NCBI RefSeq assembly: GCF_004684805.1
Contig: NZ_SRID01000030.1
Span: 1-33,058, forward strand
Reading direction: 5' to 3'
Source: Streptomyces palmae
GTDB lineage: Bacteria > Actinomycetota > Actinomycetes > Streptomycetales > Streptomycetaceae
Length of the DNA stretch: 33,058 bases
Shown: piece by piece, positions 15,555 through 15,767 of the stretch
Position numbering within the stretch: the stretch's first letter is position 1
Layout of the letters: each line of letters starts with the position of its first letter
Program-made: the position numbers and the translations under genes
Notes under the pieces: generated by a model
Told to the model about the DNA's origin: nothing
The model's input: only the letters and a program-made list of their open reading frames with translations
The model's database searches: none

Positions 15555-15560
15555 TATGAT
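15555..15560 (+). promoter_or_regulatory. -10 box of the tRNA-like gene
   Basis: TATGAT, one mismatch from TATAAT, ends 10 nt before the first base of the tRNA-like structure. Transcription would then begin only a few bases upstream of the mature 5' end. The -35 region has no recognisable consensus. Confidence 0.45.
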
Positions 15561-15570
15561 CATCGGCAAG

Positions 15571-15644
15571 GCGGGGTCGTAGCACAGAGGTAATGCGCCG
15601 CGATGACATCTCGGAGGACGTCGGTTCGAATCCGACCGCCCCGC
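15571..15644 (+). tRNA. Non-canonical tRNA-Val(GAC)-like gene
   Basis: The fold is clear. T arm: GTCGG-TTCGAAT-CCGAC (15620-15636), perfect. Variable region: AGGAC. Anticodon arm: CCGCG-ATGACAT-CTCGG (15598-15614), with U33 and anticodon GAC at 15605-15607, but a C-U mismatch in the stem. D arm: GCAC-AGAGGTA-ATGC (15582-15596) with A14, GG and A21 in place and a C-A mismatch; TA at 15580-15581 fits U8-A9. The acceptor stem is abnormal. GCGGGG pairs with CCCCGC and CG with CG, leaving T15577 bulged, so acceptor plus T helix totals 13 bp instead of 12. No CCA is encoded. It may be a degenerate tRNA, a tRNA-like RNA with another role, or a working unusual tRNA. A -10 box upstream and a strong terminator downstream suggest that it is expressed. 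It is the only plus-strand gene between 3.7 and 31.5 kb. Confidence 0.65.
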
Positions 15645-15662
15645 CCCCTTTCACTCCCCACA

Positions 15663-15708
15663 CGACGTCGGCCTTCATGACCCGCTGTGGTCATGAAGGC
15701 CGACGTCG
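15663..15708. terminator. Bidirectional terminator between the tRNA-like gene and the radical SAM gene
   Basis: Perfect 20-bp arms (15663-15682 and 15689-15708) with a 6-nt loop, lying between the convergent tRNA-like gene and the minus-strand gene that stops at 15768. Confidence 0.85.
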
Positions 15709-15767
15709 CGTTCAGCGCCCAGGATCCCCCGACGGTGTCCTCAGCCGCCGGGGGTCCGGTCCGCCGC

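Follow-up and report, generated by a model that had tools for sequence, protein, structure and literature searches.

The window, by which we mean the whole 33,058-nucleotide stretch of Streptomyces palmae DNA that was analysed, contains a short tRNA-like feature on the forward strand between a PAS/PP2C-type regulator gene and a gene of the TIGR03960 family (708 bits to TIGR03960). The PP2C label of the first neighbour comes from an earlier note on this DNA, and our profile scan gave PAS, RsbA and RssB matches. The tRNA-like body runs from acceptor strand to acceptor strand at 15570-15645 (+), as placed by ARAGORN, Rfam and comparison with related copies. ARAGORN names the segment 15571-15647 (+) tRNA-Val(gac), and in a scan of 2.2 kb the Rfam tRNA model matched it at 43.7 bits (E=1.9e-7; gathering score 29), confirming the tRNA match that the earlier note had proposed from inspection.

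The predicted fold is a cloverleaf with the D/T elbow nucleotides of a canonical tRNA, including U8 (T15580) and, within the D arm (15582-15596), A14 (15586), G18G19 (15589-15590) and A21 (15592). The anticodon arm (15598-15614) carries the loop ATGACAT at positions 32-38 (15603-15609, read as A-TGA-CAT), with T33 at 15604 and the anticodon GAC at 15605-15607, and the T arm (15620-15636) has the loop TTCGAAT. There is a C13-A22 mismatch (15585/15593) in the D arm and a C30-U40 mismatch (15601/15611) in the anticodon arm, and the 3' acceptor strand, CGCCCCGCC (15637-15645), encodes no CCA. All of these landmarks, together with the bulged T15577, had been correctly described before. The 5' acceptor strand (GGCGGGG-T-CG, 15570-15579) forms 7 bp with its partner, then the bulge, then 2 bp; the stem had been counted as 8 bp, but an extra pair, G15570-C15645, brings it to 9 bp, and the acceptor/T helix, given as 13 bp, is in fact 14 bp plus the bulge, instead of the 7-bp acceptor and 12-bp branch of a canonical tRNA. 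Folding energy is ordinary (z -0.8 for 15570-15645; +0.3 with the leader), so that the case for this gene rests on comparison of copies, from which the family, the constraint on stem and elbow, the promoter motif, the changing loop and the dispersal described below were all read.

A -10 element, TATGAT, is located at 15555-15560 (+), a box that in related copies usually lies 19-20 nt before U8, and from its spacing the expected transcription start would fall at 15566-15568 (+), a few nucleotides before the acceptor stem. Of 127 distinct upstream regions, 122 have a TANNNT motif at this fixed position ahead of the stem; in 12 control windows the corresponding count was 0-3 of 127. Because the covariance model used to collect copies contains -10 columns as well as pairs, it favours copies that have these two features; a BLAST search whose query lacked the promoter provides a check for the -10 element only, and the motif is present in 26 of the 29 upstream regions from that set. 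Among 44 near-identical copies, similarity falls off beyond the -10 box on the upstream side and within a few bases past the acceptor 3' strand, and the conserved unit of about 95 bp from box to strand (about 15555 to 15647 (+) in the window) recurs at many unrelated sites and on plasmids. Transcription would begin at the acceptor itself or a few nucleotides before it. The proposal of a tRNA-like RNA with its own promoter is supported.

The same cannot be said of the terminator assigned to the gene. A hairpin with two perfect 20-base arms does occupy 15663-15708 (z -8.5 for 15660-15711, without a T run), as had been claimed; it sits, however, past the stop codon with which the convergent TIGR03960 gene ends, and none of the 23 other copies examined with 110 bases of downstream flank shares its sequence. 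It is likely to be the terminator of the TIGR03960 gene, lying outside the tRNA-like unit. By eye, two other copies (L002 and L015) have hairpins of their own in the downstream flank, and a different hairpin stands at the equivalent place behind TIGR03960 in L032.

No tRNA-like copy was found at the TIGR03960 loci of 80 relatives, either by BLAST or with the covariance model (742 kb, 0 model matches). The earlier note had regarded a missing counterpart at this locus as evidence against the gene, but this absence is explained by the gene being dispersed, with counterparts at other sites. A clean empty site was not found among the relatives compared: S. fumigatiscleroticus has a PP2C-like gene (63% amino acid identity) beside TIGR03960 and no tRNA-like gene (L031:6041-8674), with a spacer too diverged for an empty-site comparison, and in genome G016 homology to the window ends before the spacer. 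Short, remnant-like matches to the PP2C-like neighbour were seen in S. longwoodensis (L064).

When the feature was compared with the ordinary tRNAs of the S. palmae genome, it stood apart from them. Ranked by score, the 64 tRNA matches of the genome end with two members of this family, namely the window copy (43.7 bits) and a second one on contig C50 (43.4 bits), which is more than chance would give. This second member (G000 contig C50:5376-5475 (-); L137, L282) has a Trp-type loop (CCA) and lies between what we take to be an M55 peptidase-like gene and a NUDIX-like gene. In a body alignment against 32 of the 64 matches, the best-scoring tRNA was tRNA-Pro(TGG), with 58 of 71 aligned positions identical; tRNA-Phe had a higher identity fraction at a lower score (56/67), and tRNA-Val genes (50-51 of 64-66) ranked only sixth to eighth, so that the Val label derives solely from the anticodon. 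As at least three ordinary tRNA-Val(GAC) genes are present in the genome and the body is nearest by score to tRNA-Pro(TGG), the tRNA-Val identity proposed earlier is not supported. Even tRNA-Pro(TGG) differs from the window gene in having a 7-bp acceptor, an encoded CCA and a Pro anticodon. The A-NNN-CAT loop type is that of the genome's tRNA-Ala(GGC), ATGGCAT, and 29 of the 32 ordinary genes compared likewise lack CCA inside the ARAGORN limits.

To place the gene among its relatives, 150 genomes of the genus were searched by BLAST with the 80-base unit without its promoter, and 12 of them (S. palmae included) were found to have a copy that is 91% or more identical across 78 or more bases, besides more distant copies; matches were counted in 101 of the 150 genomes, many of the others being short T-arm matches to ordinary tRNAs. 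With the covariance model R2 the copies score 50-112 bits and ordinary tRNAs up to 56.5 bits (20 stretches of the S. palmae genome), and because these ranges overlap it is location and core, and not the score, that distinguish the weakest copies. For the same reason the 328 of 392 genus genomes that match at 1e-9, many of them at the level of an ordinary tRNA, are unusable as a measure of family prevalence. In a sample of 245 genomes from the order, drawn from eight genera in unstated proportions, 74 had a match at E<=1e-12, all of them Streptomyces. In total 135 copies were collected, leaving out those with a T loop or D arm off the search pattern (e.g. L217). On these comparisons the window gene is best described as one copy of a dispersed Streptomyces family of tRNA-like genes and not as a decayed tRNA-Val.

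The long acceptor is kept by compensatory change across the family. At least nine standard pairs, and up to 15, can be formed in 75 of 78 distinct acceptors; 11 of the 78 have an internal mismatch in the span, and 50 of the 78 fit best with one unpaired 5' nucleotide, a T two pairs from U8 in 31 of the 50 and a C one pair from U8 in 17; the T at the bulge is found in 42 of the 44 near-identical copies. The pairing score averages 10.7 for strands of the same gene against 6.8 when 3' strands are swapped (maximum 7.5 in 200 shuffles). In an alignment of 21 sequences, a covariation score of 0.173 and 25 cells with changes on both sides were each reached by 0 of 500 shuffles, although two of the five covariation measures were no higher than in shuffles (six pairs with change on both sides, reached by 87/500; the number of further pair types, reached by 436/500), and relatedness among the sequences can inflate such scores. 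The likeness to tRNA-Sec or tRNA-His suggested earlier is loose in view of this range of lengths; the exclusion of tRNA-Sec stands, given a variable loop of 5 nt instead of the long arm of that class II tRNA. The suggestion of a degenerate tRNA is not supported, since the odd stem is maintained by compensatory change. The mismatch in the anticodon stem is also a family trait: on ungapped loops, 30-40 is unpaired in 79 of 84 members with an A-NNN-C[AG]T loop (C-U in 43, U-U in 22, A-G in 13 and U-C in 1).

In a tRNA that serves decoding one would expect the anticodon to be retained, whereas in this family it varies. The 44 near-identical copies, from 27 of 69 sites, may owe part of their near-identity to recent spread; 58 of 76 body positions are invariant among them, and only seven exceed 0.5 bits of entropy, namely the loop positions 33, 34 and 35 (1.07, 0.99 and 1.76 bits; 15604-15606 in the window) and positions 22 (0.90), 50 (0.99), 64 (0.95) and 65 (0.90), with the T-stem pair 50-64 varying on both sides. 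Position 34 is thus no more variable than 22, 50, 64 and 65, and only position 35, where all four bases occur, stands out singly as the most variable of the body. Positions 33-35 present ten triplets and positions 34-36 seven nominal anticodons, while C36 and U38 are kept in 44/44 and A37 in 43/44 copies. Family-wide, an A-NNN-C[AG]T loop is present in 84 of the 135 copies, among which 14 triplets occur and of which 64 have C33; at this level neither U33 nor the anticodon is conserved, while the window copy itself keeps U33 and a legal anticodon. The anticodon changes even at one orthologous locus, where three genomes with seven common neighbouring protein families have GAC, GTC and GGC, which argues against decoding; at another site common to three genomes one copy has a wholly different arm. 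A further 38 of the 135 copies form a Trp-type class with a tRNA-Trp-like CTCCA loop (one with GCA), and these members look normal in the loop and could decode.

The dispersal of the family is seen both in the flanks of its copies and on plasmids. By flank similarity the 135 copies fall into about 69 sites (single-linkage, approximate), one of these groups having 15 members, and no copy lies within an open reading frame as called by a crude caller. When neighbours up to about 5 kb from the first 21 loci were compared, the only common ones were those of syntenic groups, of one broad group of six and of several two-member pairs; no mobility gene recurs beside these loci, and the window's own subfamily has no recurrent neighbour there. 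Among plasmid records, the window unit matches one and an LRR-linked copy matches nine, that one included. Six of these records, each a linear Streptomyces plasmid, were opened, and the model confirmed a copy in every one (66.9-110.4 bits), for which ARAGORN gives the names Asp, Trp, Ala, Cys, Ser and Cys. In five of their tables a locus-tag number is skipped at the match, which may mean that NCBI has an RNA gene annotated at that place. Searches for phage or viral carriers gave nothing convincing, a mycobacteriophage tRNA-His matching at 77%, and a description of the family was not found in a literature search limited to open PMC papers and to the terms used.

Several individual loci deserve mention in their own right. 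On the S. coeruleorubidus plasmid (L278:8254-8326, -), a Gly(tcc) tRNA is called on the opposite strand, some 160 bases away from the family copy; one genome has a pair of copies separated by about 0.7 kb whose anticodon arms are unrelated (L190/L289); and the copy at L124:3707-3782 (L015) lies, by eye, between DivIVA-like and ileS-like genes, its acceptor span extending to 14 and possibly doubling as a terminator stem.

Some relatives of the window gene are linked to genes encoding leucine-rich repeat (LRR) proteins. Using as query an LRR protein of genome G134, which is outside the sample and was chosen since its gene adjoins a family member, we found such a protein in 15 of 101 genomes, and in all 15 the LRR or SDR-LRR operon is immediately preceded by a family member in the same orientation (10/10 of the LRR-first type and 5/5 of the SDR-LRR type, some with tandem pairs of tRNA-like genes). 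Several of these 15 members were already among the BLAST-found copies, and two (L292, 50.0 bits; L295, 56.0 bits) score within the ordinary-tRNA range (up to 56.5 bits). SDR loci without the LRR gene have a family member in one case of six, and loci of SDR paralogues (L302-L320) in 0 of 19. In 10/10 LRR-first genomes the coordinates place a DUF2201 gene some 3-4 kb downstream of the LRR gene, and the order LRR-Ank-AAA-DUF2201 was established by Pfam for L288 only. In L280, L349 and L353 a Trp-type copy is also divergent from a DUF2201-AAA pair near the SDR gene (Pfam for L349 and L353 only), a pair that is cut short in L279 and absent in L281.

DUF2201 itself was considered as a general partner and rejected: none of 30 DUF2201 genes had a model match within about 1.5 kb, eight of them belonging to LRR operons with the tRNA-like gene further upstream, which leaves 0 of 22 outside such operons, and 14 wider DUF2201 stretches (one a 6.5-kb contig) gave no model match. 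On the linked proteins PADLOC returned only weak ankyrin, PDC-M and RtcR-type AAA matches. In L288, L283 and L352 the tRNA-like gene is followed by LRR, an Ank protein whose N-terminal part has no Pfam match, MoxR AAA and VWA/DUF2201 genes. Tandem tRNA-like pairs with loops resembling the Ala, Glu, Asp and Gly anticodon loops precede an SDR gene with an N-terminal Cys-rich motif (by eye) in L291, L294, L299 and L279. The S. palmae genome has no such LRR protein at E<=1e-15, so that the LRR link is a clue to the family and not a demonstrated partnership of the window copy; with neither an LRR gene nor a recurrent neighbour of its subfamily, the coupling may fail to apply to this copy.

Among known RNAs of tRNA shape, YrlA and the Y RNAs are non-decoding, have a tRNA-like elbow and are sometimes encoded beside genes for partner proteins. 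The family resembles them in its elbow and in the partner-like neighbour genes of some members, but it differs in having a complete cloverleaf with an anticodon arm, and the genes beside these members (LRR/SDR or LRR/Ank/AAA/DUF2201) are unlike those of YrlA and Y RNA. No Rfam Y RNA family was among the 15 matches listed at E up to 10, of which only tRNA reached its gathering score, and no TROVE gene was among the Pfam matches of 18 selected proteins. The allo-tRNAs have 8/4 or 9/3 branches (12 bp) and SerRS identity elements, and share with the family a tRNA scaffold with abnormal acceptor/T geometry and many anticodons on one body (PMC7609411), as in the seven nominal anticodons of the near-identical copies. 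They differ in that the family has a 5-bp T stem, an acceptor of 9-15 pairs that is often bulged and a short variable loop, and the window gene, with its 5-bp T stem and 14 bp plus bulge, has neither an 8/4 nor a 9/3 branch. The tRNA-Other of Bacillus cereus is a tRNA-like gene not functional in translation and with a regulatory role; it is part of larger RNAs in one island, whereas the present family is dispersed with a promoter close to the stem (PMC3399842). The L288 operon, with its MoxR-type AAA and VWA/DUF2201 genes, recalls the MoxR-vWA ternary conflict systems (PMC7159879), although the words 'leucine', 'ankyrin' and 'DUF2201' do not turn up in a word search of that paper, in which 'LRR' and 'tRNA' occur in reference titles only.

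Taken as a whole, the comparisons indicate that the window feature is real and unusual, a putative tRNA-like non-coding RNA wrongly typed as tRNA-Val. The reading we favour, although we would put it somewhat short of an even chance, is that it specifies a tRNA mimic which is leaderless, takes no part in decoding and spreads horizontally, and which may serve as a decoy or sensor for enzymes that act on tRNA. RNA polymerase would start at or just before the 5' end of the acceptor, and given such a start no RNase P step would be needed; the RNA would fold into the tRNA L-shape and would not be used in decoding, because the acceptor has 9 bp, CCA is not encoded and U33 and the anticodon are unconserved in the family. 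By imitating a tRNA it might then occupy or sense, in trans, proteins that act on tRNA, the likeliest targets being anticodon-loop nucleases or similar toxins, with the loop as the changing part and the elbow as the handle, and in some genomes this role might be coupled to the LRR proteins encoded beside related members. The decoy or sensor function is speculative and the least certain step of the explanation; it is suggested by the intact elbow, by loops with the very sequence found in real tRNAs (Ala ATGGCAT, Glu CTCTCAA), by the changing apex and by the LRR_6 neighbours of relatives, a ribonuclease-inhibitor-like repeat type. A wider version, which we regard as doubtful, would make the family an RNA-protein module of stress or immunity, in which leaderless mimics with diversifying loops serve as bait for, or sensors of, agents that damage tRNA, the founder being operonic with LRR and AAA/DUF2201 or SDR genes and solitary copies having spread horizontally.

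It is also conceivable, though unlikely, that the gene encodes a working tRNA of unusual form, comparable to the allo-tRNAs with their varied anticodons, which reads GNN codons once processing and CCA addition have trimmed its long stem to normal length. All elbow nucleotides are intact, the A-NNN-CAT group has by definition NNC anticodons that would read GNN, most ordinary tRNA genes compared also lack CCA within the ARAGORN limits, and the Trp-type relatives retain CCA anticodons; these points have to be set against the prevalence of C33, the anticodon that differs at an orthologous locus, a helix maintained far past 7 bp, the unpaired 30-40 and the ordinary tRNA-Val(GAC) genes already present. 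We give the same low probability to a tRNA-gene derivative that spreads for itself as a small mobile or selfish unit without host function: the many flank-distinct sites, all apparently outside open reading frames, and the copies on linear plasmids would fit such a unit, but its RNA structure and promoter are constrained, 15 members belong to one flank group and no mobility gene recurs at the first 21 loci. More improbable still is a trans-acting regulatory RNA whose A-NNN-CAU loop would be complementary to AUG-NNN-U, a start codon and the next codon of an mRNA, since A-NNN-CAT is the plain loop of the genome's tRNA-Ala(GGC) and ancestry explains the CAU; Trp-type and E-type members lack it, though some SDR-LRR-linked members have it, and the points on its side are the retention of positions 36-38 while 33-35 vary and the regulatory pseudo-tRNA known in B. 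cereus (PMC3399842). A decayed tRNA pseudogene, to which the mismatches and the low tRNA score might point, is scarcely credible, given that the same mismatches, bulge and promoter recur across sites and genomes.

A tRNA finder reports these genes as ordinary tRNAs with arbitrary anticodons, and such labels can bias tRNA inventories, and with them models of codon supply, in a major genus of antibiotic producers. An RNA in which almost the whole tRNA is retained but the anticodon is not offers a direct test case for roles of the tRNA shape outside translation, and the link of relatives to an uncharacterised LRR operon, found in 15 of 15 genomes, offers a genetic handle on its function.
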